Shown one piece after another: positions 11,550 through 46,610 of a stretch of 64,000 bases of DNA. A program made the position numbers and the translations under genes. The stretch is taken from contig JAJEKV010000023.1 of assembly GCA_021234155.1 (NCBI GenBank), forward strand, positions 8,624,610 to 8,688,609. The letters run 5' to 3'. The stretch is from Isoetes taiwanensis. Its lineage: Eukaryota; Streptophyta; Lycopodiopsida; Isoetales; Isoetaceae. The notes beneath the pieces were generated by a model. It worked only from the letters and a program-made list of their open reading frames with translations, was not told the DNA's origin and ran no database searches. Position 1 is the first letter of the stretch; each line of letters opens with the position of its first letter.

Positions 11550-12036
11550 TTAGGCAACTTCCCACAATTTCCCACAATTGTTACTAGTAACGTTGTCCAA
11601 GGACTCGATACACAATTGAGTTACTACTAAGAGCTTTTCCATAGATACCAAAGGACTGGTTTTGGAATGTGAAAGTATCGACCTCAAAATCATCAACCAT
11701 TAGAATCTTTCACTTTAACACCAGCGCTCTCAAAAGACTAAGGCCAGAGTGAAAAATCTTGAAGCATGTGATGCAGCATAAGAAATAGAAAAATAGAACA
11801 AAAGAGCATAAAATATAAGAGATCAATTGCCCATATCTTTTTTGTGAAGAATTTTTAACTGATGATGCTGGTGCTACATGAAATGAAAGACAATGGCTAT
11901 TTACCTCAATCTTCTCGTTCGCCGTAGTCGGCATAACAATATGATCTTCTTTGGTTGATCTTTGCGCAGCAGATGAAGCAAACAACATCATCAAGAGCAT
12001 CATTATGCTACTACCAGATAATGTTAACAATGCCAT
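11550..12036 (-). pseudogene. PLAT copy B, exon 2 scrambled
   Basis: Exon 1 (ATG at 12036) is intact with its signal peptide, but exon 2 is reduced to about 200 bp. The C-terminal end survives with an inserted short duplication (TCCCACAATT twice near 11560). The middle is a mixture of fragments out of order, with the piece containing GGTTTTGGAATGTGAAAG joined to the one containing ATTAGAATCTTTCAC. No PLAT fold could be made. Confidence 0.8.
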
Positions 12037-16037: not shown

Positions 16038-16396
16038 GTTTCTCCCAAGATGATGCAAATCAAGCATTGGTTGCATCTATATATCTTGTTTCCAATGCAT
16101 TATGGACGTGGCATGCATGCATAGTAGACTTTTCACATGCATGCATGCATGGTTTCGTAACCTTCGATATTTATCACTTTATCTCGAATCATCCATTAGG
16201 TTTCCAATGAAGATTCTAGACGATCAAATGCCTTTTTTTTTGCAAAAAAAACTATTGTCCGTCGGATTTGCAATCTTCCTTCTCTAGTTTGCTCTTTCTC
16301 ACCAATTTGGGCTTACTCGGGAAGGAGCTGCCATTTTTTTGTTGCCCAGAGATGTCTTTTTGCATGCACTTACTGAAATATATCGGTGAAGCCAAC

Positions 16397-17031
16397 TTAG
16401 AGCATGGTGAACTGTAGATACCTTTGAGTTTTTGTCGTAGATTCCTCAACAAGCTTATATGAGCAACACGAAGATAGCATATCCTTCTTAGTTCTGAGAT
16501 TGCCTCCATTTATACATGCTTTGAGGCAACTCAGACTTCTCTTTGGCTTTAAAACCTGCCACTGGACTTTCAAATACCATGGAAATAGAGTTTTCATAGA
16601 ACAATCAAGGGAAACCATTTGCATTGTTTTAAACAACAAACTTAGACAAAGCTTTTTTTGTTTAAAAAGGATACTCATTCTCCATTTTAGACATGAGAGT
16701 GCTGGGCTACAATTGAAAGAGGCTATCCGTTATGCCTGTACTGAGGAGAAAAGGTCTATGGCTATTTCAAGGGCATTCGAGACTGCTTATAAAACAAATT
16801 TAGAAGCTATATGGAATAGGCATATGCCATACCTTCAATGAGGAGGTTTTAACTAACATTTTGGAGTTCATGAATAACTATGAGTTTGTATAGGCACTTA
16901 CGTTGTGAAGGTCTACGCTTATGCAGGCAAGAAGTAGATTCCTTTATTGCATGGAATGATTTCTTTACTTCGGATGATGAATAAAAAGTGCTTATGTATT
17001 CTTTCAACGAGCTTCTTGAGGGCATATGCAC
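16397..17031. other. array spacer with conserved short frames, example unit
   Basis: The 1-kb spacer between PLAT genes carries short open frames in most units. On the minus strand there are frames of 93 codons (16397-16678), 85 codons and 60 codons (16849-17031). On the plus strand a coherent frame includes LQLKEAIRYACTEEKRSMAI and AYKTNLEAIWNRHMPYLQ (about 16,690-16,841). Copies are too alike for conservation to prove coding. The plus-strand frame reads most like a real exon; a captured gene fragment is possible. No family recognised. Confidence 0.3.
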
Positions 17032-17428
17032 TTCCTAGCTCATCACCGAGGACGCTGGGACACAATCATTTGTCAGACATCCCAATATCTTGCATTACAA
17101 TTTCTACACAGTGATAATTTCTACAGAACGACCACAACACTGTGAATGAAAACTCTGTCAAATAGAAATATCGGAATCAAGAAAATGAACTTTGTGTTCC
17201 CATGTTTGGGGCCCAAGACTATCTCCTATGCTCTATATTGATTTACAAGAGCAACTCAAAAGTAAAATGTAAAACAACACAAAATTATCTCATCTTATGC
17301 TACAAAATACATCAGCGCCATGTTTAATACATCTGCACTAGATATTTATTATCATATACATACTATGATGAATATACAAAACTTATTTGCTGCAATAGAA
17401 TGTAAACATTCATCATCTTACATTGTAA

Positions 17429-18123
17429 TTAGGCACAGCTTCCCACAATTGCTACGTTGTCCAAGTACGGATACACAATTGAGTTACTAGTAAGAGCTTT
17501 TCCATAGACACCAAAGGACTCTGATACGACAGCACCATTAGAATCTTTCACTTTAACACCAGCGCTCTCAAAAGACCAAGGCGAGCTTGAGGAGTATCTA
17601 ACTTTAGCAGCGCAAACGTTTTTGAAACAGGGCTGGTTTTGGAATGTGAAAGTATCGATATGCAAAGCCTCAAAATCATCAACACCAGGGTTGTCAAGGC
17701 TTGGGAAGTCTAGAAAAGAAGACTGCCCATCATACACTCGCACACCGACTTCGCCATCAGTGCCTTTATCCCCTGTTGCTATTTTTATCTCGATTGTGCA
17801 ATCCCCTTTTCCCTGTGTCTGTTAGGCAGGCCAGAGTGAAAAATCTTGAAGCATGTGATGCAGCATAAGAAATAGAAAAATAGAACAAAAGAGCATAAAA
17901 TATAAGAGATCAATTGCCCATATCTTTTTTGTGAAGAATTTTTACCTGATGATGCTGGTGCTACATGAAATGAAAGACAATGGCTATTTACCTCAATCTT
18001 CTCGTTCGCCGTAGTCGGCATAACAATATGATCTTCTTTGGTTGATCTTTGCGCAGCAGATGAAGCAAACAACATCATCAAGAGCATCATTATGCTACTA
18101 CCAGATAATGTTAACAATGCCAT
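17429..18123 (-). CDS. secreted PLAT/ATS3-like protein, copy E
   Basis: Exons 17946-18123 and 17429-17805 encode about 184 residues: signal peptide 1-25, a linker rich in charged residues and a PLAT-like domain of about 120 residues with DCTIEIK, LDNPGVDDFEA and PCFKNVC. First copy of the TSNSIVYPYLDN subfamily. The frame is intact and the promoter with RY motifs and TATA box is complete. An alternative model, GAG^GT with CACAG^GG (exons 17992-18123 and 17429-17812), also keeps the frame and gives 171 residues. Confidence 0.8.
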
Positions 18124-18162
18124 GTTTCTCCCAAGATGATGCAAATCAAGCATTGGTTGCAT

Positions 18163-18237
18163 CTATATATCTTGTTTCCAATGCATTATGGACGTGGCAT
18201 GCATGCATAGTAGACTTTTCGCATGCATGCATGCATG
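18163..18237 (-). promoter_or_regulatory. RY/ACGT/TATA promoter of PLAT copy E
   Basis: Read on the minus strand, two clusters of overlapping CATGCATG (18221-18237 and 18198-18208) precede an ACGT core (CCACGTCC) and a TATATAG box at 18163-18170, about 43 bases before the ATG at 18123. CATGCA is the RY element bound by B3-domain regulators (ABI3, FUS3, LEC2) and often acts together with ACGT motifs. The same layout recurs before nearly every PLAT copy. Confidence 0.7.
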
Positions 18238-19476
18238 GTTTCGTAACCCTCCATATTTATCACTTTATCTCGAATCATCCATTAGGTTTCCAATGAAGAT
18301 TCTAGACGATCAAATGTCTTTGTTTTTTTGCAAAAAAACTTCTTTCTCACCAATTTGGGCTTACTCGGGAAGGAGCTGCCATTTTTTTGTTGCCCAGAGA
18401 TGTCTTTTTGCATGCACTTACTGAAATATATCGGTGAAGCCAACTTAGAGCATGGTGAACTGTAGATACCTTTGAGTTTTTGTCGTAGATTCCTCAACAA
18501 GCTTATATGAGCAACACGAAGATAGCATATCCTTCTTAGTTCTGAGATTGCCTCCATTTATACATGCTTTGAGGCAACTCAGACTTCTCTTTGGCTTTAA
18601 AACCTGCCACTCGACTTTCAAATACCATGGAAATAGAGTTTTCATAGAACAATCAAGGGAAACCATTTGCATTGTTTGAAACAACAAACTTAGACAAAGC
18701 TTTTTTTGTTTAAAAAGGATAGTCATTCTCCATTTTAGACATGAGAGTGCTGGGCTACAATTGAAAGAGGCTATCCGTTATGCCTGTACTGAGGAGAAAA
18801 GGTCTATGGCTATTTCAAGGGCATTCAAGACTGCTTATAAAACAAATTTAGAAGCTATATGGAATAGGCATATGCCATACCTTCAATGAGGAGGTTTTAA
18901 CTAACATTTTGGAGTTCATGAATAACTATGAGTTTGTATAGGCACTTACGTTGTGAAGGTCTACGCTTATGCAGGCAAGAAGTAGATTCCTTTATTGCAT
19001 GGAATGATTTCTTTACTTCGGATGATGAATAAAAAGTGCTTATGTATTCTTTCAACGAGCTTCTTGAGGGCATATGCACTTCCTAGCTCATCACCGAGGA
19101 CGCTGGGACACAATCATTTGTCAGACATCCCAATATCTTGCATTACAATTTCTACACAGTGATAATTTCTACAGAACGACCACAACACTGTGAATGAAAA
19201 CTCTGTCAAATAGAAATATCGGAATCAAGAAAATGAACTTTGTGTTCCCATGTTTGGGGCCCAAGACTATCTCCTATGCTCTATATTGATTTACAAGAGC
19301 AACTCAAAAGTAAAATGTAAAACAACACAAAATTATCTCATCTTATGCTACAAAATACATCAGCGCCATGTTTAATACATCTGCACTAGATATTTATTAT
19401 TATATACATACTATGATGAATATACAAAACTTATTTGCTACAATAGAATATAAACATTCATCATCTTACATTGTAA

Positions 19477-20171
19477 TTAGGCACAACTTCCCACAATTGC
19501 TACGTTGTCCAAGTACGGATACACAATTGAGTTACTAGTAAGAGCTTTTCCATAGACACCAAAGGACTCTGATACGACAGCACCATTAGAATCTTTCACT
19601 TTAACACCAGCGCTCTCAAAAGACCAAGGCGAGCTTGAGGAGTATCTAACTTTAGCAGCGCAAACATTTTTGAAACAGGGCTGGTTTTGGAATGTGAAAG
19701 TATCGACATGCAAAGCCTCAAAATCATCAACACCAGGGTTGTCAAGGCTTGGAAAGTCTAGAAAAGAAGACTGCCCATCATACACTCGCACACCGACTTT
19801 GCCATCAGTGCCTTTATCCCCTGTTGCTATTTTTATCTCGATTGTGCAATCCCCTTTTCCATGTGTCTGTTAGGCAGGCCAGAGTGAAAAATCTTGAAGC
19901 ATGTGATGCAGCATAAGAAATAGAAAAATAGAACAAAAGAGCATAAAATATAAGAGATCAATTGCCCATATCTTTTTTGTGAAGAATTTTTACCTGATGA
20001 TGCTGGTGCTACATGAAATGAAAGACAATGGCTATTTACCTCAATCTTCTCGTTCGCCGTAGTCGACATAACAATATGATCTTCTTTGGTTGATCTTTGC
20101 GCAACAGATGAAGCAAACAACATCATCAAGAGCATCATTATGCTACTACCAGATAATGTTAACAATGCCAT
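19477..20171 (-). CDS. secreted PLAT/ATS3-like protein, copy F
   Basis: Exons 19994-20171 and 19477-19853 give an intact 184-residue frame with signal peptide and PLAT-like domain. The candidate acceptor CACAG is changed to CACAT here, so the acceptor must be AAAAG^GGGATTGC or AACAG^ACACAT. Together with copy D this favours the CAG^GTAAAA with AAAAG^GGG model. It reads ALHVDTF where E reads ALHIDTF. Confidence 0.8.
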
Positions 20172-21524
20172 GTTTCTCCCAAGATGATGCAAATCAAGCA
20201 TTGGTTGCATCTATATATCTTGTTTCCAATGCATTATGGACGTGGCATGCATGCATAGTAGACTTTTCGCATGCATGCATGCATGGTTTCGTAACCCTCC
20301 ATATTTATCACTTTATCTCGAATCATCCATTAGGTTTCCAATGAAGATTCTAGACGATCAAATGTCTTTGTTTTTTTGCAAAAAAACTTCTTTCTCACCA
20401 ATTTGGGCTTACTCGGGAAGGAGCTGCCATTTTTTTGTTGCCCAGAGATGTCTTTTTGCATGCACTTACTGAAATATATCGGTGAAGCCAACTTAGAGCA
20501 TGGTGAACTGTAGATACCTTTGAGTTTTTGTCGTAGATTCCTCAACAAGCTTATATGAGCAACACGAAGATAGCATATCCTTCTTAGTTCTGAGATTGCC
20601 TCCATTTATACATGCTTTGAGGCAACTCAGACTTCTCTTTGGCTTTAAAACCTGCCACTCGACTTTCAAATACCATGGAAATAGAGTTTTCATAGAACAA
20701 TCAAGGGAAACCATTTGCATTGTTTGAAACAACAAACTTAGACAAAGCTTTTTTTGTTTAAAAAGGATAGTCATTCTCCATTTTAGACATGAGAGTGCTG
20801 GGCTACAATTGAAAGAGGCTATCCGTTATGCCTGTACTGAGGAGAAAAGGTCTATGGCTATTTCAAGGGCATTCAAGACTGCTTATAAAACAAATTTAGA
20901 AGCTATATGGAATAGGCATATGCCATACCTTCAATGAGGAGGTTTTAACTAACATTTTGGAGTTCATGAATAACTATGAGTTTGTATAGGCACTTACGTT
21001 GTGAAGGTCTACGCTTATGCAGGCAAGAAGTAGATTCCTTTATTGCATGGAATGATTTCTTTACTTCGGATGATGAATAAAAAGTGCTTATGTATTCTTT
21101 CAACGAGCTTCTTGAGGGCATATGCACTTCCTAGCTCATCACCGAGGACGCTGGGACACAATCATTTGTCAGACATCCCAATATCTTGCATTACAATTTC
21201 TACACAGTGATAATTTCTACAGAACGACCACAACACTGTGAATGAAAACTCTGTCAAATAGAAATATCGGAATCGAGAAAATGAACTTTGTGTTCCCATG
21301 TTTGGGGCCCAAGACTATCTCCTATGCTCTATATTGATTTACAAGAGCAACTCAAAAGTAAAATGTAAAACAACACAAAATTATCTCATCTTATGCTACA
21401 AAATACATCAGCGCCATGTTTAATACATCTGCACTAGATATTTATTATCATATACATACTATGATGAATATACAAAACTTATTTGCTGCAATAGAATGTA
21501 AACATTCATCATCTTACATTGTAA

Positions 21525-22219
21525 TTAGGCACAACTTCCCACAATTGCTACGTTGTCCAAGTACGGATACACAATTGAGTTACTAGTAAGAGCTTTTCCA
21601 TAGACACCAAAGGACTCTGATACGACAACACCATTAGAATCTTTCACTTTAACACCAGCGCTCTCAAAAGACCAAGGCGAGCTTGAGGAGTATCTAACTT
21701 TAGCAGCGCAAACATTTTTGAAACAGGGCTGGTTTTGGAATGTGAAAGTATCGACATGCAAAGCCTCAAAATCATCAACACCAGGGTTGTCAAGGCTTGG
21801 AAAGTCTAGAAAAGAAGACTGCCCATCATACACTCGCACACCGACTTTGCCATCAGTGCCTTTATCCCCTGTTGCTATTTTTATCTCGATTGTGCAATCC
21901 CCTTTTCCATGTGTCTGTTAGGCAGGCCAGAGTGAAAAATCTTGAAGCATGTGATGCAGCATAAGAAATAGAAAAATAGAACAAAAGAGCATAAAATATA
22001 AGAGATCAATTGCCCATATCTTTTTTGTGAAGAATTTTTACCTGATGATGCTGGTGCTACATGAAATGAAAGACAATGGCTATTTACCTCAATCTTCTCG
22101 TTCGCCGTAGTCGACATAACAATATGATCTTCTTTGGTTGATCTTTGCGCAGCAGATGAAGCAAACAACATCATCAAGAGCATCATTATGCTACTACCAG
22201 ATAATGTTAACAATGCCAT
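21525..22219 (-). CDS. secreted PLAT/ATS3-like protein, copy G
   Basis: Exons 22042-22219 and 21525-21901, intact. It is almost identical to copy F, exactly 2,048 bp away, and shares its ALHVDTF and CACAT changes. It differs in few positions (ASSAAQ versus ASSVAQ, SNGVVVS versus SNGAVVS). The pair is therefore a very recent duplication. Confidence 0.8.
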
Positions 22220-22409
22220 GTTTCTCCCAAGATGATGCAAATCAAGCATTGGTTGCATCTATATATCTTGTTTCCAATGCATTATGGACGTGGCATGCAT
22301 GCATAGTAGACGTTTCGCATGCATGCATGCACGGTTTCGTAACCCTCCATATTTATCACTTTATCTCGAATCATCCATTAGGTTTCCAATGAAGATTCTA
22401 GACGATCAA

Positions 22410-22658
22410 GGGTAAAAGCATGAAAGGGTGTACGTACATTGTACTGAATTGATGTACAAATATGGATACATTTTGGTTATTTTTTATTTGTATAAACATA
22501 CACTTTTCGATTTTATGTACTTTGCATATATATTTAAGCTAAATTTCGGATATGTTTTAGCTATGCATGTACTTTTTGGGTACTTTGGGTGATTTGTGTA
22601 ATATAGCCACATGTACCAAAAGGGATACATTTATAGACACCCTTTCATGCTTTTACCC
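22410..22658. mobile_element. 249-bp MITE, GGGTAAAAGCATG ends, 4-bp target duplication
   Basis: Perfect 22-bp terminal inverted repeats start GGGTAAAAGCATGAAAGG. The flanks are TCAA at 22406-22409 and 22659-22662, while uninterrupted units have a single TCAA. It sits just upstream of the promoter region of copy G. No coding sequence inside. A second member with related ends lies at 25012-25332. Confidence 0.85.
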
Positions 22659-23901
22659 TCAAATGCCTTTTTTTTTTTTGCAAAAAAACTATTGTCCGTC
22701 GGATTTGCAATCTTCCTTCTCTAGTTTGCTCTTTCTCACCAATTTGGGCTTACTCGGGAAGGAGCTGCCATTTTTTTGTTGCCCAGAGATGTCTTTTTGC
22801 ATGCACTTACTGAAATATATCGGTGAAGCCAACTTAGAGCATGGTGAACTGTAGATACCTTTGAGTTTTTGTCGTAGATTCCTCAACAAGCTTATATGAG
22901 CAACACGAAGATAGCATATCCTTCTTAGTTCTGAGATTGCCTCCATTTATACATGCTTTGAGGCAACTCAGACTTCTCTTTGGCTTTAAAACTCTCTTTG
23001 GCTTTAAAACCTGCCACTCGACTTTCAAATACCATGGAAATAGAGTTTTCATAGAACAATCAAGGGAAACCATTTGCATTGTTTGAAACAACAAACTTAG
23101 ACAAAGCTTTTTTTGTTTAAAAAGGATAGTCATTCTCCATTTTAGACATGAGAGTGCTCGTCTACAATTGAAAGAGGCTATCCGTTATGCCTGTACTGAG
23201 GAGAAAAGGTCTATGGCTATTTCAAGGGCATTCGAGGCTATCCGTTTATCTTGAGGAGAAAAGGTCTATGGCTATTTCAAGGGCATTCGAGAAGCTATAT
23301 GGAATAGGCATATGCCATACCTTCAATGAGGAGGTTTTAACTAACATTTTGGAGTTCATGAATAACTATGAGTTTGTATAGGCACTTACGTTGTGAAGGT
23401 CTACGCTTATGCAGGCAAGAAGTAGATTCCTTTATTGCATGGAATGATTTCTTTACTTCGGATGATGAATAAAAAGTGCTTATGTATTCTTTCAACGAGC
23501 TTCTTGAGGGCATATGCACTTCCTAGCTCATCATCGAGGGACATTTGGGACACAATCATTTGTCAGACATCCCAATATCTTGCATTACAATTTCTACACA
23601 GTGATAATTTCTACAGAATGACCACAACACTGTGAATGAAAACTCTGTCAAATAGAAATATCGGAATCAAGAAAATGAACTTTGTGTTCCCATGTTTGGG
23701 GCCCAAGACTATCTCCTATGCTCTATATTGATTTACAAGAGCAACTCAAAAGTAAAATGTAAAACAACACAAAATTATCTCATCTTATGCTACAAACTAC
23801 ATCAGCGCCATGTTTAATACATCTACACTAGATATTTATTGTCATATACATACTATGATGAATATACAAAACTTGTAAACATTCATCATCTTACATTGTA
23901 A

Positions 23902-24596
23902 TTAGGCACAGCTTCCCACAATTGCTACGTTGTCCAAGTACGGATACACAATTGAGTTACTAGTAAGAGCTTTTCCATAAACACCAAAGGACTCTGATAC
24001 GACAACACCATTAGAATCTTTCACTTTAACACCAGCGCTCTCAAAAGACCAAGGCGAGCTTGACGAGTATCTAACTTTAGCAGCGCAAACGTTTTTGAAA
24101 CAGGGCTGGTTTTGGAATGTGAAAGTATCGATATGCAAAGCCTCAAAATCATCAACACCAGGGTTGTCAAGGCTTGGGAAGTCTAGAAAAGAAGACTGCC
24201 CATCATACACTCGCACACCGACTTCGCCATCAGTGCCTTTATCCCCTGTTGCTATTTTTATCTCGATTGTGCAATCCCCTTTTCCCTGTGTCTGTTAGGC
24301 AGGCCAGAGTGAAAAATCTTGAAGCATGTGATGCAGCATAAGAAATAGAAAAATAGAACAAAATAGCATAAAATATAAGAGATCAATTGCTCATATCTTT
24401 TTTGTGAAGAATTTTTACCTGATGATGCTGGTGCTACATGAAATGAAAGACAATGGTTATTTACCTCAATCTTCTCGTTCGCCGTAGTCGGCATAACAAT
24501 ATGATCATCTTTGGTTGATCTTTGCGCAGCAGATGAAGCAAACAACATCATCAAGAGCATCATTATGCTACTACCAGATAATGTTAACAATGCCAT
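23902..24596 (-). CDS. secreted PLAT/ATS3-like protein, copy H
   Basis: Exons 24419-24596 and 23902-24278 give an intact frame with signal peptide and domain. Differences from E: MRPML upstream of the start, STKDDH and EVNNHC in the linker. The CACAG acceptor and both donors are present. About 15 bp of the 3' flank (around 23876) is deleted relative to other units, which removes part of TTATTTGCTGCAATAG. Confidence 0.8.
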
Positions 24597-25011
24597 GTTT
24601 CTCCCAAGATGATGCAAATCAAGCATTGGTCGCATCTATATATCTTGTTTCCAATGCATTATGGACGTGGCATGCATGCATAGTAGACTTTTCGCATGCA
24701 TGCATGCATGGTTTCGTAACCCTCCATATTTATCACTTTATCTCGAATCATCCATTAGGTTTCCAATGAAGATTCTAGACGATCAAATGCCTTTGTTTTT
24801 TTGCAAAAAAACTATTGTCCGTCGGATTTGCAATCTTCCTTCTCTAGTTTGCTCTTTCTCACCAATTTGGGCTTACTCCGGAAGCAGCTGCCATTTTTTT
24901 GTTGCCCAGAGATGTCTTTTTGCATGCACTTACTGAAATATATCGGTGAAGCCAACTTAGAGCATAGTGAACTGTAGATACCTTTGAGTTTTTGTCGTAG
25001 ATTCCTCAACA

Positions 25012-25332
25012 GGGTAAAAGCATGTTAGGGTGTCCCTTAAAAAGTATTATTTAGTGACTAAAAAAGTACCTAAAAAGGTACCCAGGACTGGGTACTGGGT
25101 ACCCGTGTAATATCTCAATAAAAGTTACATTTTAGAACTTTTATATATATTTTGGTCTCCGGTAGCATTATCTTTATCTTAACTTTGAATATTAATGTGT
25201 CCTTGACTTTTATTTTGGACCTTTGTACTAGTTTTAAGGAAAATAAAAATGAGAAAGTACCCAGTTCGGAAGTACCTAGTGTATGTACTTTTGCAGGTTC
25301 CAAAAGTGGTACACCCTAACATGCTTTTACCC
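25012..25332. mobile_element. 321-bp MITE, same terminal family, 4-bp target duplication
   Basis: Inverted ends start GGGTAAAAGCATGTTAGG and are perfect for 22 bp. The target duplication is AACA at 25008-25011 and 25333-25336, and undisturbed units read CTCAACAAGC. The interior differs from the element at 22410 and contains several GGTACY motifs. It interrupts the spacer, not a gene. Confidence 0.85.
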
Positions 25333-25605
25333 AACAAGCTTATATGAGCAACACGAAGATAGCATATCCTTCTTAGTTCTGAGATTGCCTCCATTTATAC
25401 ATGCTTTGAGGCAACTCAGACTTCTCTTTGGCTTTAAAACCTGCCACTCGACTTTCAAATACCATGGAAATAGAGTTTTCATAGAACAATCAAGGGAAAC
25501 CATTTGCATTGTTTGAAACAACAAACTTAGACAAAGCTTTTTTTGTTTAAAAAGGATAGTCATTCTCCATTTTAGACATGAGAGTGCTGGGCTACAATTG
25601 AAAGA

Positions 25606-25727
25606 GGCTATCTGTTATGCCTGTACTGAGGAGAAAAGGTCTATGGCTATTTCAAGGGCATTCGAGGCTATCCGTTATGCCTGTATTGAGGAGAAAAGGT
25701 CTATGGCTATTTCAAGGGCATTCGAGA
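25606..25727. repeat. about 60-bp tandem duplication in the spacer
   Basis: The segment from GAGGCTATC to GGGCATTC occurs twice in a row here with two mismatches; ordinary units carry it once. A decayed form of the same duplication is at 23173-23292, so the unit pair upstream of H and I descends from one event. Confidence 0.7.
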
Positions 25728-26334
25728 AGCTATATGGAATAGGCATATGCCATACCTTCAATGAGGAGGTTTTAACTAACATTTTGGAGTTCATGAATAA
25801 CTATGAGTTTGTATAGGCACTTACGTTGTGAAGGTCTACGCTTATGCAGGCAAGAAGTAGATTCCTTTATTGCATGGAATGATTTCTTTACTTCGAATGA
25901 TGAATAAAAAGTGCTTATGTATTCTTTCAACGAGCTTCTTGAGGGCATATGCACTTCCTAGCCCATCACCGAGGACGCTGGGACACAATCATTTGTCAAA
26001 CATCCCAATATCTTGCATTACAATTTCTACACAGTGATAATTTCTACAGAACGACCACAACACTGTGAATGAAAACTCTGTCAAATAGAAATATCGGAAT
26101 CAAGAAAATGAACTTTGTGTTCCCATGTTTGGGGCCCAAGACTATCTCCTATGCTCTATATTGATTTACAAGAGCAACTCAAAAGTAAAATGTAAAACAA
26201 CACAAAATTATCTCATCTTATGCTACAAACTACATCAGCGCCATGTTTAATACATCTACACTAGATATTTATTGTCATATACATACTATGATGAATATAC
26301 AAAACTTGTAAACATTCATCATCTTACATTGTAA

Positions 26335-34265: not shown

Positions 34266-35471
34266 GATGATGAATGTTTACATTCTATTGCAGCAAATAA
34301 GTTTTGTATATTCATCATAGTATATATATGATAATAAATATCTAGTGCAGATGTATTAAACATGGCGCTGATGTATTTTGTAGCATAAGATGAGATAATT
34401 TTGTGTTGTTTTACATTTTACTTTTGAGTTGCTCCTGTAAATCAATATAGAGCATAGGAGATAGTCTTAGGCCCCAAACATGGGAACACAAAGTTCATTT
34501 TCTTGATTCCGATATTTCTATTTGACAGAGTTTTCATTCACAGTGTTGTGGTCGTTCTGTAGAAATTATCACTGTGTAGAAATTGTAATGCAAGATATCG
34601 GGATGTCTGACAAATGATTGTATCCCAGCGTCCTCGATGATGAGCTAGGAAGTGCATATGCCCTCAAGAAGCTCGTTGAAAGAATCCATAAGCACTTTTT
34701 ATTATCATCCGAAGTAAAGAAATCATTCCATGCAATAAAGGAATCTACTTCTTGCCTGCATAAGCGTAGACCTTCACAACGTAAGTGCCTATACAAACTC
34801 ATAGTTATTCATGAACTCCAAAATGTTAGTTAAAACCTCCTCATTGAAGGTATGGCATATGCCTATTCCATATAGCTTCTAAATTTGTTTTATAAGCAGT
34901 CTCGAATGCCCTTGAAATAGCCATAGACATTTTCTCCTCAGTACAGGCATAACGGATAGCCTCTTTCAATTGTAGCCCAGCACTCTCATGTCTAAAATGG
35001 AGAATGACTATCCTTTTTAAACAAAAAAAGCTTTGTCTAAGTTTGTTGTTTCAAACAATGCAAATGGTTTCCCTTGATTGTTCTATGAAAACTCTATTTC
35101 CATGGTATTTGAAAGTCGAGTGGCAGGTTTTAAAGCCAAAGAGAAGTCTGAGTTGCCTCAAGGCATGTATAAATGGAGGCAATCTCAGAACTAAGAAGGA
35201 TATGCTATCTTCGTGTTGCTCATATAAGCTTGTTGAGGAATCTACGACAAAAACTCAAAGGTATCTACAGTTCACCATGCTCTAAGTTGGCTTCACCGAT
35301 ATATTTCAGTAAGTGCATGCAAAAAGACATCTCTGGGCAACAAAAAAATGGCAGCTCCTTCCCGAGTAAGCCCAAATTGGTGAGAAAGAGCAAACTAGAG
35401 AAGGAAGATTGCAAATCCGACGGACAATAGTTTTTTTGCAAAAAAACAAAGGCATTTGATCGTCTAGAATC

Positions 35472-37614: not shown

Positions 37615-38296
37615 ATGGCATTGTTAACATTATCTGGTAGTAGCATAATGATGCTCTTGATGATGTTTGCTTCATCTGCTGCGCAAAGATCAACCAAAGA
37701 AGATCATATTGTTATGCCAACTACGGCGAACGAGAAGATTGAGGTAAATAGCCATTGTCTTTCATTTCATGTAGCACCAGCATCATCAGGTAAAAATTCT
37801 TCACAAAAAAGATATGGGCAATTGATCTCTTATATTTTATGCTCTTTTGTTCTATTTTTCTATTTCTTATGCTGCATCACATGCTTCAAGATTTTTCACT
37901 CTGGCCTGCCTAACAGACACAGGGAAAAGGGGATTGATAAAAATAGCAACAGGGGATAAAGGCACTGATGGCGAAGTGGGTGTGCGAGTGTATGATGGGC
38001 AGTCTTCTTTTCTAGACTTCCCAAGCCTTGACAACCCTGGTGTTGATGATTTTGAGGCTTTGCATATCGATACTTTCACATTCCAAAACCAGCCCTGTTT
38101 CAAAAACGTTTGCGCTGCTAAAGTTAGATACTCCTCAAGCTCGCCTTGGTCTTTTGAGAGCGCTGGTGTTAAAGTGAAAGATTCTAATGGTGCTGTCGTA
38201 TCAGAGTCCTTTGGTGTCTATGGAAAAGCTCTTACTAGTAACTCAATTGTGTATCCGTACTTGGACAACGTAGCAATTGTGGGAAGCTGTGCCTAA
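37615..38296 (+). CDS. PLAT/ATS3-like protein, copy L, altered domain start
   Basis: Exon 1 37615-37789. Exon 2 carries the 10-bp deletion but is otherwise intact. The frame is restored only if the acceptor CACAG at 37918-37922 is used (exon 2 37923-38296), giving about 182 residues in which KRGLIKIATG replaces GDCTIEIKIATG. The first domain cysteine and most of beta-strand 1 would be lost, so function is doubtful. Confidence 0.45.
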
Positions 38297-38765: not shown

Positions 38766-38771
38766 CATTCC
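38766..38771. other. integration core CATTCC, left
   Basis: CATTCC at 38766-38771 is the point where array sequence (AAAT-CATTCC) meets the element (TAGGATGGG). The same hexamer is at the right edge (46605-46610) and at the internal junction (39764-39769). Uninterrupted units read AAATCATTCCATGCAA. Confidence 0.8.
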
Positions 38772-38805
38772 TAGGATGGGTCCTGATCTACACATAAGTG
38801 GCCGA
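38772..38805 (-). repeat. B2 repeat of the YR retroelement
   Basis: 34 bp starting TAGGATGGGTCCTGATC, identical to 39770-39803. Next to the integration core; the outer end of the element. Confidence 0.8.
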
Positions 38806-39607
38806 AGTGAAGTGGTATTCTCATTGAGCTTTGTGAAATCGTTGAATACAAATTGATTCCCCTATTAGGGTAGAGCTTTGAAAGAACGTGAAATATAAAT
38901 GCTCCGAAACTAGACAATCATCGAGAGCGCGAAGAGACTACGAAACACAAGATGAACAAAGATCTTTCATCCGCCGCTCGGTTTATACAAGGAAGAGAAA
39001 ACTGGTGCTCGCTTCTCCTCGGGATGCAAGCCCCGTCCTTGCGCAATCCCGTGCATCTCGATCACCAAGAGACCTCAGAATCAACCTGCAAAGGCAACGA
39101 TGAAGAAAAAACCCGTCAAGGAGTTAGGCGCCCTGCGCAATAATATATCAAATATCCAATCAAGTCCAGAGGCGCCAGGGCCACGCTGAACAAAGGAACA
39201 ACAGCCGACCAATCGAAAATCGTCCGCGGAATGACCATCGCGGAGAAAAATATTCGATTAGTGCTGCCTCAGAGGCTACAATGCCACGCTGAGGGATGAA
39301 AAATTGGAGGATGCCTCAGAGGCTACAGAGCCACGCTGAGAACACTGAACCATAAGAACATATAAACTTGCCAAGAACATCAGACAACGAAAAACATGGA
39401 GGGTGCCAGAGGCAGTAAAGCAATCTGAGAGGTAGAGAAAGAAGACAGAAACCGTAGATGGTCACTTGACCAAAGGAAAAGAGGAATAACAACATGGAAC
39501 AAACATGAACAATTTACTGTCAACAAACCCAAGAAACTCAACCGAACCAGAGCCAATGAACCCTATACCATCCGAGAAGAACACAAAGAGAGGGAGGGAA
39601 GGGCGGG
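38806..39607. other. non-coding tail region of the YR retroelement
   Basis: About 800 bp between the B2 end and the A2 repeat. It holds short direct repeats such as GCCTCAGAGGCTACA near 39267 and 39312. Short frames exist but none resembles a known protein. Confidence 0.5.
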
Positions 39608-39769
39608 AAGGTAGGTAGAAGGCGCTAAAGACAACAAAGCAAAGCTCAAGAGAATGCCGATAGCCAACCAAGGGAAAAACCGGTCTATAAATAGGAGGGC
39701 GTGATACTGGGGCGTCCCCATCCAAGGAATGACGGTTCTATTGCTATCGCAATAGAACCGTAGCATTCC
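39608..39769 (-). repeat. A2 repeat of the YR retroelement
   Basis: 162 bp matching 46449-46610 with one mismatch (GGGGCGTCCCC against GGGGCATCCCC). It contains a 13-bp perfect inverted repeat, ACGGTTCTATTGC at 39732-39744 and its complement at 39749-39761, separated by TATC and two bases from the core CATTCC. This is a likely recombinase binding site. Confidence 0.8.
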
Positions 39770-39803
39770 TAGGATGGGTCCTGATCTACACATAAGTGGC
39801 CGA
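39764..39803 (-). repeat. internal circle-junction copy: core CATTCC plus B1 repeat
   Basis: A2 and B1 meet here across CATTCC exactly as the two outer ends would meet in a circular intermediate. The end of the recombinase gene overlaps or abuts B1 on the minus strand. Confidence 0.8.
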
Positions 39804-39829
39804 TAGAAGAGGAACCTACCTCAAAGACC

Positions 39830-40853
39830 AAGATGGCGGGATACAGTGAGGCGCTCCTGAATGTCGGGTAGAATGTAGCGCAAGTGGGAAGCAGCAGAGC
39901 GCCAACGCCCGTGAGAGCGGACAATGTCGGCGATGACGAAGCAAAGAATCGTGGTAGCACCGCCTCTACCGCATGGGTGCCAAAATCCCGAGGCTCCAAA
40001 CCGATAAGACGCAGAGACTCAAACCACCACGAACGGGCAGCAGCATATGACAAAGGCCGTGTGGAGGACAAGGATGAGCGAAAAAGAGGGCCGCCCTCAG
40101 GTGGGTCGGAGGCACGAAAACAACAGACGGACAACAAACGCTGCAATAACATGACAGGCGTATGGGGAAAAAGCGGCTATGAGGACCTCCCGGCCACGCT
40201 GATTGGTCGCGACTTAGACTCGCGGATGTGCAACCGACATAGTCCGGGAAAAGGACAGTCGTGCTAATTCAAAAAGTGCAAAGGCTCGAAATTCTGGAGA
40301 AAACCAAAGAAAGAGATAGTGACTAGGCACGCCATGAGGTCAGCGCTTAATCGGGCTTGTGAGGGGGGGTAGTAGGGAGATGATTTGGCTTAACGGAGAC
40401 GCAAAGCCGAGGTAAACGTCGCCGTGAAGAAGAGTGGGTACGAGGGGCGGCTTGGCGGACCAACACAGGAAGAGGGGCTGAACAAGGCGAAGGAAAGTTG
40501 ATCAAGCTATGAAAAAAGGCAATAGCGGCAGAAGCGACCCCTATAGAAGTAGGACTACGATGGGTAGATATTAGAGAGGAGAAGAATGCAGCAACATGCA
40601 AAGAGGAGGCAGGTAAAGATGTAAGCTGCTGAGAGTGACACCACCGACGAAATTGAAGCCAGGCAGAAGAATAACTGAGCAAAGTTGACGGTGCGCAAGA
40701 CTGGAGAACAGAAGCCATAGCCGAGGTGAAGAAGGGAAATGAGGGGCCATCATAAAAAGGTAAAATATCTGGAACAAGGGAATAAGCAAGTGTTAATATC
40801 AACCAACCAAAAAAGAAAAAATAACACCATGGACTACTCCAAGCTATACCCAA
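39830..40853 (-). pseudogene. tyrosine recombinase of the YR retroelement
   Basis: The N-terminal part (40853-40347) has the SAM-like core-binding layout: APSTLLSYSSAWLQFRRWC, then SLHVAAFFSSLI and SIGVASAAIAFFH. The C-terminal part (40152-about 39840) contains PLSYAAARSWWFESLRLIGL and RDFGTHA. The catalytic Arg followed by GGAT is encoded near 39953-39970 and the box HGRWRS near 39899-39913, in a different frame from RDFGTHA, so a frameshift separates them. About 200 bp between the parts (40153-40346) reads poorly in one frame. The family catalyses integration of circular element DNA without an integrase. This copy looks inactive. Confidence 0.7.
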
Positions 40854-40977
40854 AACTAACCAACAACTCAGAAACCAGTCCCGACGCTATCAAACAGATG
40901 AGAAACAACCTTATGAAAATGAACAAACTTTCTAAAAAACATGTGAGATTACAAGAATGATGTGAGAAGAGACAATA

Positions 40978-41778
40978 TTAAGTATTAGAAAAATCACAAC
41001 GCAAGGCGAATAGTGCTGCATGACGACGGACACCTGCGATGCGGGAAGAAGGTGAAGGTAGTAAGGCCTGGGAGAATTCATGAAAGAAAACTGCGTCTCG
41101 AACAAAAGATTGCCAAGTGGAGGAGTCAACAGCAAGCAGTGGCCACCAAGGGGCAGAGGGCCAAGAGAAAACAAGTAGTGTGAGGCGGGCCCGGCAAATC
41201 CGAGCATGATGCAAAACCTCAGGAACCAAGGAAGGTGGAGGAAAGCAGTAGTTGTTAAACAGATGCCAGTCATAAGAAAAGGCGTTAGGCGCGATCCGAT
41301 GAGGATAACAATCTTTGGTGTTGAAGACTGGCAGGAGAGCATTAAAAGGGCTAGCAAAACGATCAACATGATGTGGCCCCCACCGCTCATCTAAGAGGCA
41401 AAAGACTGAGGGGGAAAGAGAAAATTCATCAAAGGCCCGAATTTTGGAAAGATAGTCAGCCCACTCATTCTCCAAGCGTGGAACCCAAACTGGCTCCAAC
41501 TGAATATGATGCTGATAGCAGAAAATTAGTACTTCCAGCAGCAAAAAATGAAGCACGGGGGATCGCGAACCGCCATTCTCAGAATAAAAAGAACACATTC
41601 TCGATTGTCCCCACGAAGCTATCACACAAGAGTCGACAACAACTAAAACACACCGGCCGCAAGATCTGAAAAAGAGCAAAGAGTTCACGCCAAGTAGAAG
41701 ATTGAGGCGGGCATCCGCCGAGAAATCTCCGTAAAAAGAGAGAAGCTCTAAACCGGACGTGAAAGCCAACCACCCCAT
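40978..41778 (-). pseudogene. RNase H and connection region of the YR retroelement
   Basis: Open for 266 codons. It contains PVWVPRLENEWADYLSK, the RNase H segment with the N-x-x-A-D motif, then HHVDRFASPFNALLPVFNTK and AFSYDWHLFNNYCFPPP, the conserved stretch after RNase H in DIRS-like pol proteins. The first half reads partly in a neighbouring frame. It continues from the RT region and is followed by the recombinase gene. Confidence 0.75.
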
Positions 41779-41885
41779 CCCTCATCACGGCATCAAAACC
41801 CAAGGTAGAATCGACGACACAAAGAAAGCGGCCACAATGGGGCTCTATCAAACTGACAAATAAGGGTCTGCCAAAGCTGGACCTC

Positions 41886-42837
41886 CTATTTTGCAAGGGG
41901 AGATAGAAGAAGGGGAGTATCCCAAAGGTCGGCCTGGCGTAGATCAAAATGGAGACCACAAGACAAGGCAGCACACAGACGACCCAGGACCAAGTGCAGG
42001 GATTGGATAAAGCCAAGAAAACGGGCAATCAGGCGAGGAGTGACAACTTGGGAAGACAACAAACTAGAACACAGAGACAAGACCCGTTCCTTCTTAGCCC
42101 GAGATATACGAAAGAAGCCCTCATGAGCGTCCACTATGAAACCTAAGAAAATTGTGCAATGTGAGAGACGAAACCGACACTTCTTCCAAGCTAAGAGAAA
42201 ACCGGCCCGTTGCAAATCAGAAATGACGCGGATCTCAGAGAACCTCGTGACATGTTTGGCATAAGAATAAAATATCATCGACATAGGGTAAGCAAACGGA
42301 CGCCTCGACCTCGCCAAAACCGAACCAACCTGTCCCGACTAATTTGGTAAAGACAAAAGGGGCTGGAGCTAGACCAAAGGGGAGGACATTAAAGACATAG
42401 AACTGGCCATCAAGCTCAAAACCCAAGAAAGTGCGATGAGAAGGCCAGATTGTGATATGATGATAACCGGATTTCAGGTCGACAAAGAAAGAGAAAGTTG
42501 GGTAGACACAGATGTGACAACAGTTTCGAGGGACTCATACCGAAAAGAGGGGATGGTCAAAAAAGAGTTTAGATAGCGCAGATCTAGGATGAGACGGAAT
42601 TTGTTTAGGCCTTTAGGGACGACCCCCAAGGGGGAACAGAAGAAGGGGCGGGAGGTGACTGGGGATGCGGCACCCGTACGCAGGAGATCGGCCACGCCAG
42701 CAGAGCGAAAGCAAAGTCACGATGGGCGCATAAAGACGAAAGTGGTTTGGAGCAGAGAAAGCATCGGGGAGGACACGGATGACCAAGGAAGGTGATAACC
42801 AAATCAGATCCAATTCAAAACCTGTTGTGAGGAGCAA
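41886..42837 (-). pseudogene. reverse transcriptase of the YR retroelement, frameshifted
   Basis: RT motifs occur in order on the minus strand but in several frames. PLGVVPKGLNKFRLILDLRY lies in 42695-42474. FNVLPFGLAPAPFVFTKL and the catalytic box LPYVDDILFLC (YVDD at 42274-42285) lie in 42426-42235. FLGFIVDAHEGFFRISRAKK and the thumb-like FLGFIQSLHLVLGR lie in 42317-41886. The breaks near 42480 and 42290 show at least two frameshifts. The motif spacing and the RNase H that follows are typical of DIRS-like pol. Confidence 0.8.
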
Positions 42838-43442
42838 ATGGATTGCCAGAAAGGAAGGGCCGCATGGAGGCGATTCAAGACTATAGTAGCCGAGGCCAAG
42901 TCATCAGCTGGGGAGGGGTCGATGCCAAGATGAGGGATGACCGAGGTAAATGGAGCACATTCTGAAAAGAGGGCACAAACTGTAAGTAACCAACCAAATA
43001 ACCAAGGAACTCGTCAAACCAAGAAGGCAAACGGACCCCGTGAACTTTATACATTTTGCACGCCGAAGTTAACCAAACCAAGCTCATACCTCAAAAGCTC
43101 GTGATACACGTAATACACCCACATGCAACAGTAAACCAAAGGAGAAAGTTGAACGAAGACTAGAAAAAACCCTTTAGGGCTAAGCACAAACACATGCATA
43201 CACAACCCCACCCAACTTGCATACATACACACCCCGTAGGAAAATAAAACATCTAACACCACCACAGCCCTCAATCGGATACCGTCCTAACATGCTAGAA
43301 CACAAATTGAAAACCAAACAACAAAACGTGAGCTAATGAAGAACGGGACGAGCCATAGCACCAAAATCATCTTAATAAAAGCATATGTAATAGTATTGCT
43401 TTAATGTAATATCCGAGGAGGTCAAATCGAGGGAGGCATAAA
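42838..43442. other. spacer between gag and RT of the YR retroelement
   Basis: About 600 bp without a convincing frame; probably the degraded start of pol. Confidence 0.4.
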
Positions 43443-44095
43443 TCATGGGCCGGGACGGGGAAAAAATGGAGTCGGGGCCGGCACCAAAGGACCCGGAGGT
43501 GGAATCAAAGGTGGCAGAGGGGCGTTAGGAGATCCGGCATTAACACGAGCATGGCAGGTTTCAATTCGATGGCCAAGCCGACCACAAAACGTGCAGAAAG
43601 GACGGGAACCAGATCGAGATGAAGAGAACTGGGATGGAGGCGCAGCAGAGAAGGAAGAGCCAGTAGAGGGAGCAGAGGGTCTCGAAGCAGGGGGGCGCCG
43701 ATCGCGATGCATTTGCCGAGCTAACTTCAATTTCCTGGAATCATCGGCAGATAAAGCGGGGCCCGCATGGTCATCAAAATCTAAAGCGACATCATAGCCT
43801 TCGCGATCAGCAATAATCAAGAACTTCATTCTCTGTAGGGTGGCAGCCTTACCTTCCTCAATAATCTGAAGAATCGTCTCGGGCACCCGAGGAGACAAAG
43901 CAGTCAAACGAGCATGAAGCTCCCGAAATCTCGACTCCGTGGCACAAAGGAACTCATACCGGTGGCGGACGACTCTCTTAAAGTTGGGAACAGACCGAGA
44001 CGCCTCGCTCCGAACCTCCCCGGGCGAAGCACCTCATCCGCCTCATGCACGTAAGCATCGAAGTAAGTGAGGACCGAAGGCTCAGACTGCGCCAT
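43443..44095 (-). pseudogene. gag-like protein of the YR retroelement, frameshifted
   Basis: Starts at ATG 44095 (MAQSEPSVLTYFDAYVHEAD) and ends at TGA 43443. The frame shifts near 44015; the downstream frame then runs through FRELHARLTALSPRVPETIL and ends in a proline-rich tail. A CCHC zinc knuckle (CTFCGRLGHRIETC) is at about 43554-43595, preceded by a Ser/Pro-rich linker. This is the nucleic-acid-binding end of a retroelement capsid protein. Confidence 0.7.
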
Positions 44096-44109
44096 CCGTG
44101 AATCGAGGG

Positions 44110-44628
44110 TCAGAAGAGTACCGAGGCACCATGTCCAATGATGGAGAAGGAATAGAGGAGCTCGCCGTTGGCAAGGAAATGGCTCAGCCTAATAGAAGGA
44201 CTGGCCGGGGCTTTAGAGAAAAACCGGGGAGGAACCGAGCAAAAGAAACAGTAAGAGACAACCCGAGATGGACCGGGTGAGCCGAGTGGGAAGGCATGCT
44301 TGTGCATCCGGATGTGGGGATAGCCGGCGTGACGGGTTTCACCGTAAAACAGCAAACCGACAAAGATAGTGGGCCCATCGATGCAATAGAGACCCCAAAG
44401 AAGCGCGTGCTCGCCGGACGGGTGGGGTAGATCGGCAAGGTCGATCAGAACCCTCGCCTCGGCCGTCGGGCTCGTAAGGAAGCCCGAGATGTGCTTTGGG
44501 AGAGCCCGTGATCCGCCATAATGTGAGATGTCTAGAAACAACAAGTTGCAAGCGTTAGAATGTAACCAAAAATCAACTACCGTGACATAAGGAGGGAGAC
44601 GAAAGAGCGTAAAGGGCATGATGCACAT
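44110..44628 (-). CDS. unknown ORF at the 5' side of the YR retroelement
   Basis: 172 open codons on the same strand as gag, ending 15 bp before the gag ATG. Segments such as HPSGEHALLWGLYCIDGPTI and HAGYPHIRMHKHAFPLG look protein-like, but I recognise no family. It could be the N-terminal part of gag or a separate ORF. Confidence 0.35.
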   Translation of the reverse strand: MCIMPFTLFRLPPYVTVVDFWLHSNACNLLFLDISHYGGSRALPKHISGFLTSPTAEARVLIDLADLPHPSGEHALLWGLYCIDGPTIFVGLLFYGETRHAGYPHIRMHKHAFPLGSPGPSRVVSYCFFCSVPPRFFSKAPASPSIRLSHFLANGELLYSFSIIGHGASVLF

Positions 44629-44639
44629 GAGTTAACGGG

Positions 44640-46448
44640 ATTAACGGAGCAAAAGGAAGAAATGAAAAAAATAATAAAAAGGAACTAGAAACAAGCCACA
44701 AACTTAACGAAAAAAATTGACAAGGAAAACATCGAAAAAACATAAAGAAATAATACAGGATAATGTTTGCATGTACATATGCACCATCGCATACCTAAAA
44801 CCCCAAAATCTAAAAAATAGTAGGTAAGCTAGACGGAATAAAAGCACACATAAAACCATAATGCTTAAATCGACAACATGCTAAAACATGCTAAATAGAT
44901 CAAATTGCGTACCACGCTATAGGATTAATGGGACAAAGAGAAGAACCTTACAAACAAACATAATGAATATCCTAACGACCATCTAAAGGGACCAATCCAA
45001 ATGGAAAAAATGCAAAAAACAAGATGTTATGAAAACAATGAGGGCAAGAGATGAATTTCAATCAAAGAGACAAGCGAAGAAAAAGCTCTAACGAGATTAC
45101 CTACTAAAACACGTGAAAAGAACAAAAGGGGGGGCGAAGACAACACAACCCCAACTATCTATAACGAACAACCCTGAAGGCGGTTTTGGGGAACTTGAAA
45201 AACCTCCATACAACGACTTTGTGCAAGCGAATGACCCAAAAACTTATATGGTAGAAATAAATACATATACCCATGGGGACGCAAGATCAATTTTATGCAC
45301 GATGAAGCAACAAAAAACAAAAACACCTACAACTAACAGCGAAAACCATACAGCCATAAGACGAGGCCAAGACGCAGAGCTAGCAACAACTATAAGAGCA
45401 ACACGATCGGATACCCCAACGCGGAACACAAAAAACCCAAGCAAAACAAACATGAATCGAAAATGAGGAAAGCACAAAAAGAATGCAAGGGAATGAGAAA
45501 ACAACGTGCAACTCCCCAAAGGTGCACAAAAATCCCAGGGAAACCCGTACTGGGTATCCCCAGAAAAATAGGGAACCGAACCCGGTATCCCTCCCTTGAA
45601 AGAGGAGGCGGAGCGATGGATGGCGGCAAGCCTGGAGCTGGCGGTGGCAGCCCATAGGAACTCCGGAACCAACAAAAAGGGGGACCAAGACGTGGTAAGG
45701 CACAGGCAAATGTGCGAGCCGATAAAATGAGAGCTATTTCGCCAAAAAGATCATAATGAACCAAAAAATCCGGAACCAAAAACCGCATGATAGGATCTAC
45801 CGGACAGAGGGAGAAGGAAAGACTAAAGGAGGAAGGGAAAAAACTGCCGAGGCAAGCAATTAACTTCCCAAGCAAACCCGGCTCTGAGCCGATTGTTGCT
45901 GGGCAGACAGGGTCTATCCGGCAGCTGCCATACTGCCGATCAATCTGGCAGACGGCAAACCGGGCCGATTTAGCCAAATGGGCCGTGGAGCTTAACAGAA
46001 TCAACCGCCCAGATCCAAACCGATGGCAAAGCAGCAGAGAAACCAGCAGACGGATCCAAAGGCAAACAGAGCACGCAAATGAACAGACAAAAAACCAACG
46101 AGAAAGCAGCAGGACGGAATCAAAAGCATAAACAGCTCCAACAGGACGGAATCAAAAGCATAAACAGCTCCAAATGAACAGACAAAAAACAAAGGGAGAA
46201 AACTAACCAATACCGCTGTTCAAACCACCGAGTTGAAGCATCCATCGAGCCGAGCATGGCATATGGATCCAAGTAAAACAGGAGAGATTAACCCAAAACA
46301 AACCAACAGCCGTACCTTGTTAGGTGCAGAATCAGGATGTGGGACGCAGATGAGAACAGAGGCAGCCACCGAAGTTCGTCTTGGCGTGGATCTCCTTGGA
46401 TGGTGTCGGTTCGCCCTAGCGTGGATGGCCTTGGCTGGTGCGCCTTGA
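44640..46448. other. 5' untranslated region of the YR retroelement
   Basis: A-rich on the plus strand, with no supported ORF. A direct duplication of about 34 bp (CGGAATCAAAAGCATAAACA and following bases) is at 46115-46175. Confidence 0.4.
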
Positions 46449-46610
46449 AAGGTAGGTAGAAGGCGCTAAAGACAACAAAGCAAAGCTCAAGAGAATGCCG
46501 ATAGCCAACCAAGGGAAAAACCGGTCTATAAATAGGAGGGCGTGATACTGGGGCATCCCCATCCAAGGAATGACGGTTCTATTGCTATCGCAATAGAACC
46601 GTAGCATTCC
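46449..46610 (-). repeat. A1 repeat and outer end of the YR retroelement
   Basis: 162 bp, one mismatch to 39608-39769. It carries the same 13-bp palindromic arms at 46573-46585 and 46590-46602 and ends in the core CATTCC (46605-46610), followed by array sequence ATGCAATAAAGG. Confidence 0.8.

Follow-up and report, generated by a model that had tools for sequence, protein, structure and literature searches.

A PAT-like tyrosine-recombinase retrotransposon with an ATT core and a palindromic junction in Isoetes taiwanensis

A 64,000-nucleotide stretch of the Isoetes taiwanensis genome (the window; contig JAJEKV010000023.1 of GenBank assembly GCA_021234155.1, forward-strand positions 8,624,610 to 8,688,609) contains at positions 38766-46610 a tyrosine-recombinase (YR) retroelement that is coded on the minus strand and sits inside a tandem gene array. 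Its anatomy, an ATT shared by the ends of other copies, an empty target site and, in other copies, the catalytic residues of the YR can all be read directly. Classed by domains and repeats alone, the element belongs with the PAT-like group and has a gag that carries a zinc knuckle, and we consider it very probable that it is a PAT-like YR retrotransposon of I. taiwanensis that follows the cycle proposed below. The initial annotation of the window had recognized a YR retroelement with split direct repeats in a plant host and a visible circle-type junction. Both claims hold. The reverse transcriptase (RT) and the YR lie on one strand, and two internal repeats, B1 and A2, meet at ATT 39765-39767.

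Along the coding strand the element consists of the terminal long repeat A1, gag, RT, ribonuclease H (RNase H), a Dam-like methyltransferase domain, YR, the B1-ATT-A2 junction, an 800-nt unique segment (38806-39607) and the terminal short repeat B2. The long repeats (162 nt; 39608-39769 and 46449-46610) differ by a single mismatch, at 39714, and the short repeats (40 nt; 38766-38805 and 39764-39803) by none, so either the insertion is young or the repeats have been homogenised. Repeat comparison places A1 at 46449-46608 and the internal long repeat A2, one mismatch from the terminal copy, at 39608-39767. B2 (38766-38805, read on the coding strand from 38805 to 38767) is identical to the internal short repeat B1 (39764-39803), which forms the circle-type junction with A2. 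The left boundary between target and element is the core ATT at 38767-38769, its length being taken from the comparison of ends that follows. All four split direct repeats were also found in copy L044 and the short pair in copy L046, and a short pair was seen in 14 of 28 RT-side stretches fetched from the genome.

The hexamer CATTCC occurs at 38766, 39764 and 46605, which are the left edge, the internal junction and the right edge, as the initial annotation had reported when it proposed a 6-bp core; by itself the hexamer is common in the window (54 places vs 39.5 expected). These positions and the repeats stood, and the 6-bp core did not. In other copies the bases flanking ATT vary and right ends diverge directly after ATT, and the core common to the copies, as judged from their ends, is the 3-bp ATT. 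The annotation had named copies lacking the shared core as grounds for giving up its view; such copies exist for CATTCC, and ATT is kept, being present at 34 of the 36 right and 47 of the 48 left ends when two families are pooled. Putting ATT in place of CATTCC rescues the recombination mechanism. In the window's own family, ATT is present at 14 of the 16 right ends examined (ten fetched as right ends, five solo remnants and the window), with a variable base following it, and at 30 of 30 left ends, where the preceding base is C in 15, A in 8, T in 5 and G in 2. In an abundant related family, represented by 20 elements from the first 100 of 979 places listed and retrieved with a pattern that ends before the core, ATT stands at 20 of 20 right ends and at 17 of the 18 left ends located. 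The single ATT that joins the tandem elements L091 and L092 appears in both counts, among the right ends and among the left ends.

Several observations weigh against a universal ATT core. First, the window-family left ends were initially chosen mostly by an ATTCC-containing pattern, which tilts the count of 30 towards ATT. Second, two right ends depart from it (ATC in L022, AATGG in L026), as does the left end of L104 (GTT), which was not recovered on re-reading. Finally, left ends were not found in two of the 20 abundant-family elements (L077 and L085). The right end of L026 (C1074:5758591-5758748) reads GTAGC-AATGG, with either an extra A or a slipped core.

The first C of CATTCC is replaced by A, T or G at 21 of the 40 one-mismatch places listed, and the window's target is the only one of 25 reconstructed targets with CC after ATT, so CATTCC reads as ATT plus a chance target. 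Across these 25 sites, C precedes ATT in 12 and T is the second base after it in 18, which is weak evidence of a target preference, with the caveat that 11 of the 25 are window-family sites whose left ends were mostly picked by a C-containing pattern. The reconstruction excludes six of 20 abundant-family pairs (L077; L085; the tandem pairs L091/L092, L092/L093 and L106/L107; and L104, for its GTT) and five of 16 window-family pairs (L021/L022 and L025/L026, which have no right ATT, and L004/L005, L011/L012 and L013/L014). A 3-bp circular junction without target duplication is also described for DIRS1 (PMC3266345).

The window contains 17 uninterrupted copies of AAATCATTCCATGCAA, the target of the inserted element, and a search at up to three mismatches gave 19 matches, against a maximum of 7 across 100 shuffles. 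The closest sister unit, at 34.7 kb, carries one of these empty sites at 34720-34735 on the plus strand, and the flanks adjoining the insertion are identical to this unit at 229 of 229 positions on the left and 702 of 703 on the right. Over 1 kb with gaps, identity extends to 958 of 1037 and 882 of 1038 alignment columns, respectively. There is no target duplication beyond the shared letters, and the integration product is readable from the empty sister sites, as the initial annotation maintained. The array is arranged head-to-head, with 11 uninterrupted sites on the minus strand (6658-25885) and six, together with the occupied one, on the plus strand (30720-55008). The sole array open reading frame (ORF) scanned, at 37826-38296, resembles plant ATS3 (Pfam E=0.0082, under the cut-off).

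Further copies, for which the annotation had proposed a search, were found in 1,658,258,908 bases in 1110 contigs, and their edges share ATT and not CATTCC. A 26-nt short-end pattern with up to three mismatches matched 190 places and two long-end patterns matched 930 and 979, and all reversed controls gave 0. Protein searches recovered many matches with open frames, both for the RT (best 150 of 6399 candidates scored) and for the YR (best 121 of 3176 candidates scored, with 123 matches). The reading frames of the window copy are broken in several places, including the HxxR box of its YR; this defective copy was probably moved by another copy's proteins, or broken after insertion. Its broken frames, and the fact that long-read assemblies can mis-call array repeats, would fit a contaminant or assembly artefact that does not belong to the plant. 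We regard such an origin as extremely improbable, since the element sits within a repeated host gene array, copies lie across many contigs of the 1.66-Gb genome (with 91 NAC-domain matches vs 0 in 14 control genomes), and open frames in other copies reach 767 aa.

The protein domains, all on the minus strand, can be followed through the broken frames. The YVDD part of the RT (42235-42534) matches Pfam RVT_1 at E=9.9e-9, and its likely N-terminal part lies in another frame at 42474-42716 (GVVPKGLNKFRLILDLRYLN), recognized by sequence in a region where the Pfam scan gave no RT match. Elsewhere in the genome, RVT_1 was found in seven of seven long pol ORFs scanned (E 8e-18 to 3e-15), and the nearest solved RT structure is that of Ty3. 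The N-terminal, phage-integrase SAM-like part of the YR (40347-40886) matches PF13495 at E=1.7e-4, under the cut-off, and the YR of L046 at i-E 5.8e-22. The catalytic part is divided between two frames that break at the HxxR box, 39769-40176 (L046 YR match at i-E 2.2e-20, no Pfam match) and 39824-40018 (HPCGRGG, HGRW and Y; i-E 1.8e-10). In L046 itself Phage_integrase is detected at E 6.5e-9. The R box is present in nine of nine aligned YRs, and HxxR, HGRW and the tyrosine in all seven that reach far enough. A PDB sequence search with the YR ORF gave zero matches. The gag region (43443-44033) contains a CX2CX4HX4C zinc knuckle recognized by sequence, with weak Pfam support in the window (zf-CCHC_4, E=0.01) and in L044, and none in L047.

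Between RT and YR, a frame at 40978-41781 holds the end of RNase H and the Dam-like domain (segment 40981-41616: PF05869 E=0.0086, phrog_111 E=8.6e-4). Near-complete segments cut to the domain, ten selected from 25 rows with a whole or partial segment, gave the Dam-like domain in 10/10 (best E 8e-4) and the phrog_111 DNA methyltransferase in 6/10 (best E 6e-5). The DPPY-type motif reads FPPPS or similar, which fits the inactive methylase of DIRS1-type elements (PMC3537659). The assignment is weakened by several results: whole pol ORFs scanned at E 0.1 revealed the domain in only two of five, Dam and RNase H scores fall under the Pfam cut-offs, and a fold prediction of the methyltransferase segment, for the window copy alone, had a mean pLDDT of 37. 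A PDB search with the methyltransferase profile returned WDR24 (E 8.7e-4 over 21 positions), taken as chance, and three others at E of at least 0.48.

Together with the split direct repeats, the R-HxxR-[HW]-Y recombinase of other copies, the methyltransferase after RNase H and the gag zinc finger typical of the Pat1 subgroup are PAT-like traits. A Ngaro-like element would have split direct repeats downstream of YR and no methyltransferase, and the order of the repeats here and the location of the internal ones agree with that definition (PMC4157794), as does the failure to detect Dam in three of five whole pol ORFs. The Dam-like domain after RNase H in all ten near-complete segments, with a second library agreeing in six, rules against Ngaro and makes this alternative very improbable. 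A Ty3/Gypsy long terminal repeat (LTR) element was rejected because Pfam matched no DDE integrase or protease in the 24 element ORFs scanned, plain LTRs are absent, and the RT falls outside the Ty3 rows tested. The DIRS1 type shares the 3-bp core and lack of target duplication, with one exception (L004, below), and was rejected for its long inverted repeats with inverse-complementary internal regions; the repeats here are direct and only ~14-15 bp are inverted. Kangaroo has an inverted YR gene, and here YR and RT are both on the minus strand; a Crypton, which has no RT, is ruled out by the RT of the element; and an ALOG-type DIRS element is excluded by a YR with a SAM-like domain instead of ALOG. 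An ALOG search of the genome found seven matches (two full domains and five partial), none at the listed YR places in a comparison by eye.

The RT was also placed in a tree, in which nine YR-element rows split from seven same-genome Ty3 rows with a support of 100/100 (eight Ty3 loci were fetched, and L114, without a match, was left out). The annotation's expectation of an RT apart from LTR elements was thereby borne out for these seven Ty3 rows. Its suggestion of classifying the element against DIRS, PAT and Ngaro was answered in part, with domains and repeats giving PAT-like and the phylogeny covering own-genome Ty3 rows alone. Two features of the tree temper the PAT assignment: composed of own-genome rows, it does not rank PAT vs DIRS1 vs Ngaro, and the Ty3 rows, being near-copies, amount to a test of a single Ty3 clade.

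Details of the ends suggest how the exchange proceeds. Just past ATT, four of the 16 window-family pairs have a left end that carries the target's letters instead of the element's. In L004 with L005 (C907:36.23 Mb) 13 target letters, ATTGTCCATGTTG, stand at both ends and replace the element's own left letters, and in L013 with L014 (C996:11.01 Mb) a 10-letter tract has three differences, each being the target's letter. L011 and L032 each show a single-letter departure towards the target, for which chance mutation is possible, and L017, known from its left end alone, resembles the L004 and L013 pattern. In the abundant family, the left ends that could be read clearly had no target letters past ATT. 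Comparison of these ends suggests an exchange tract longer than ATT, for which L004 is decisive and L013 supportive, with their tracts of 10-13 nt as a hint of how long the strand-exchange overlap may be. Staggered YR cuts would leave a heteroduplex that repair could settle either way, and ATT would be one side of the staggered overlap.

Other products bear the same core. Five of the 30 window-family left ends (L002, L016, L029, L032 and L038) belong to solo remnants that pass from left end to right end and flank within 0.8-1.0 kb, with ATT at both ends and no body. The unique segment between B2 and A2 is present in them (791/807 columns in L002, 689/818 in L029 and 773/810 in L032; alignable in part only in L016 and L038). 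Such remnants, the YR-element counterpart of solo LTRs, would be expected after recombination between an internal and a terminal ATT or after homologous recombination of one long repeat with the other. On C907, two copies of a duplicated locus lie 1.24 Mb from each other; a single element occupies the one at 45.93 Mb (L089, L090), and the one at 47.17 Mb contains a tandem pair (L091, L092, L093) with the joint ...GTGGC-ATT-CCTAGG.... The flanks of the two loci agree in 367/381 (left) and 131/149 (right) alignment columns, and a left-flank search found only these two near-full-length matches among the best 40 of 699 candidates. The second tandem element is common to the single-element locus (1069/1109 columns of the compared segment), so the other element appears to have inserted exactly at the resident's end, with an (ATT)n repeat at the site making the exact ATT position ambiguous. 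L107 is another right end directly abutting a short end. These arrangements suggest, from sequence comparison, that an element's own end may serve as target for another element.

The B1-ATT-A2 junction consists of two recombination sites in opposite orientation, in the order arm-ATT-hairpin-ATT-arm. In the window this palindrome (39717-39778) folds into an outer stem that holds the core (arms 39717-39723 and 39772-39778), a short unequal spacer, a 13-pair inner stem (39732-39744 with 39749-39761) and a 4-nt loop, with the inverted core AAT at 39728-39730 and a folding z of -8.4 against 100 shuffles. A junction was recovered from 19 of the 28 RT-side stretches (L043, L049, L050, L051, L055, L056, L059, L060 and L068 yielded none), and of the 20 junctions folded, including that of the window, 17 reached a z of at most -4.2, each against 100 mononucleotide shuffles. 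In an integrated copy one end is the arm and the other is an inverted arm copy with a hairpin extension; in the window this terminal hairpin spans 46558-46608 (inverted arm of the other end 46558-46571, inner stem 46573-46585 with 46590-46602, core ATT 46606-46608). Judged from these copies, a PAT-type element also has short terminal inverted repeats within its split-direct-repeat layout, which are a possible link to DIRS1 architecture. In seven of eight junctions the spacer from the used core to the inner stem is 3-5 nt, vs 1-2 nt on the other side (2 and 2 in L061). All ends read lie at the ATT copy with the longer spacer, in searches that could not reveal ends at the other copy. Descriptions of palindromes or circular junctions in YR elements were not found in the accessible portions of the literature searched, including PMC2632668 and PMC6681497.

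Among five lineage representatives, double changes affect 8 of the 16 columns of the outer stem and 11 of the 14 of the inner stem (19/30), counted from pairs in each sequence's own fold and without a shuffled control; a MAFFT junction alignment, which did not keep the structural register, did not enter the counts. Four core-proximal pairs are invariant across eight aligned junctions. In a cross-lineage control, complementarity generally peaked within lineages and was low for distant ones, with the exceptions that L046, L063 and L061 share most of the inner stem and that the outer arm of L061 is as complementary to L052 and L046 as it is to L061. Some results count against a conserved palindrome. 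Hairpins are weak or missing in L065 (z -3.3), L066 (-1.1) and L058 (0.1, because part of the junction is missing), L045 has kept its outer stem and eroded its inner stem, and the double changes are not all independent, given related representatives and own-fold pairs.

These changes bear on what the palindrome does. It could act in RNA, in 3' processing, export or priming and not in recombination, with the covariation being that of an RNA stem, and double changes do not distinguish RNA from DNA stems. We see this as a real though minor possibility, as the outer stem contains the recombination core and the other end's arm, and the four core-proximal pairs stay constant. It could also be a functionless relic of an origin by inversion, both arms being copied together in every cycle, and the palindrome has been lost in some copies (L058). 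Arms and inner stems have changed much between distant lineages and yet are complementary, for which drift alone is insufficient, and a relic is distinctly improbable.

In the cycle that we favor, an RNA copy would be reverse transcribed by RT-RNase H, and the internal B1-A2 junction would serve as the template that completes and joins the two ends, giving a circle with the joint ...GTAGC-ATT-CCTAGG.... The element's YR would then recombine this joint with a chromosomal ATT, leaving ATT at each end and usually no target duplication. The palindrome, a dimer of two oppositely oriented recombination sites that each comprise inner arm, ATT and outer arm, may hold YR subunits in pairs, or may fold as a single strand, ahead of target capture. 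Integron attC and other folded single-strand sites have inverted arms around an asymmetric hairpin that adjoins the crossover. The layout of the junction is alike, with a single-strand substrate only proposed here by analogy. If the junction were used as a folded single-stranded hairpin in the manner of integron cassettes, the complementary DNA would fold arm to arm, YR would bind the paired arms, the unequal spacers (3-5 vs 1-2 nt) would choose strand and site, and a double-stranded circle would be unnecessary. As the palindromic junction is nearly its own inverse complement, it would then also be the missing intermediate between the split-direct-repeat (PAT) and inverted-repeat (DIRS1) forms. 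We consider this combined proposal unlikely. Intermediates between the two repeat forms were described as needed, yet unobserved, in a 2014 study (PMC4157794).

Known systems share parts of this organization. The echinoderm Pat1 form has its internal repeats downstream of YR. Pat1-like elements of echinoderms (SpPat1 and relatives) also have a zinc-knuckle gag, a methyltransferase domain and split direct repeats (PMC4157794), whereas the element described here has a land-plant host, a high copy number (YR elements are usually of low copy number; PMC4157794), and a junction palindrome and short terminal inverted repeats that the accessible text of PMC4157794 does not mention for Pat1. DIRS1-like elements resemble it in the 3-bp circular junction, lack of target duplication and methyltransferase domain (PMC3266345), and in terminal inverted repeats with a one-sided extension; here the inverted repeats measure only ~14-15 bp, and outside the palindrome the internal copy has the direct orientation instead of the inverse-complementary one. 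Two green-algal elements, Kangaroo and TOC3, likewise combine split direct repeats with green-lineage hosts, but neither has the gag zinc finger, and in Kangaroo the YR is inverted and the internal repeats are located between methyltransferase and YR (PMC4157794). KnitGypsy-Dnmt3 of the charophyte Klebsormidium nitens has a DIRS-type repeat order in a streptophyte, but a Gypsy domain composition and a Dnmt3 cytosine methyltransferase (PMC5890265).

Reports on plants vary. A 2022 land-plant review places DIRS elements in green algae only (PMC9033089); a 2019 review lists DIRS as present in plants (PMC6696364), a fern repeat table has 361 DIRS fragments covering 45 kb (PMC6890710), a strawberry library has three DIRS entries (PMC10706760), and a 2024 review includes DIRS in its plant-transposon figure (PMC11630846). 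The term 'DIRS' is absent from the accessible main text of the I. taiwanensis genome paper (PMC8566536) and from that of I. sinensis (PMC10541799). We found no structurally described land-plant YR element in the accessible literature outside Repbase, supplements and subscription journals, and priority is not claimed.

A vascular plant is shown here to harbour YR retrotransposons that are abundant and in part intact, contrary to the 2022 review (PMC9033089). YR retroelements are present in the lineage whose ALOG regulators are thought to derive from DIRS1-type recombinases (PMC3537659), although these elements have no ALOG domain. What is new here is the conserved palindrome of inverted sites, a testable intermediate between the two repeat architectures, and the junction provides a concrete DNA substrate for the question of how retroelement recombinases select ATT.

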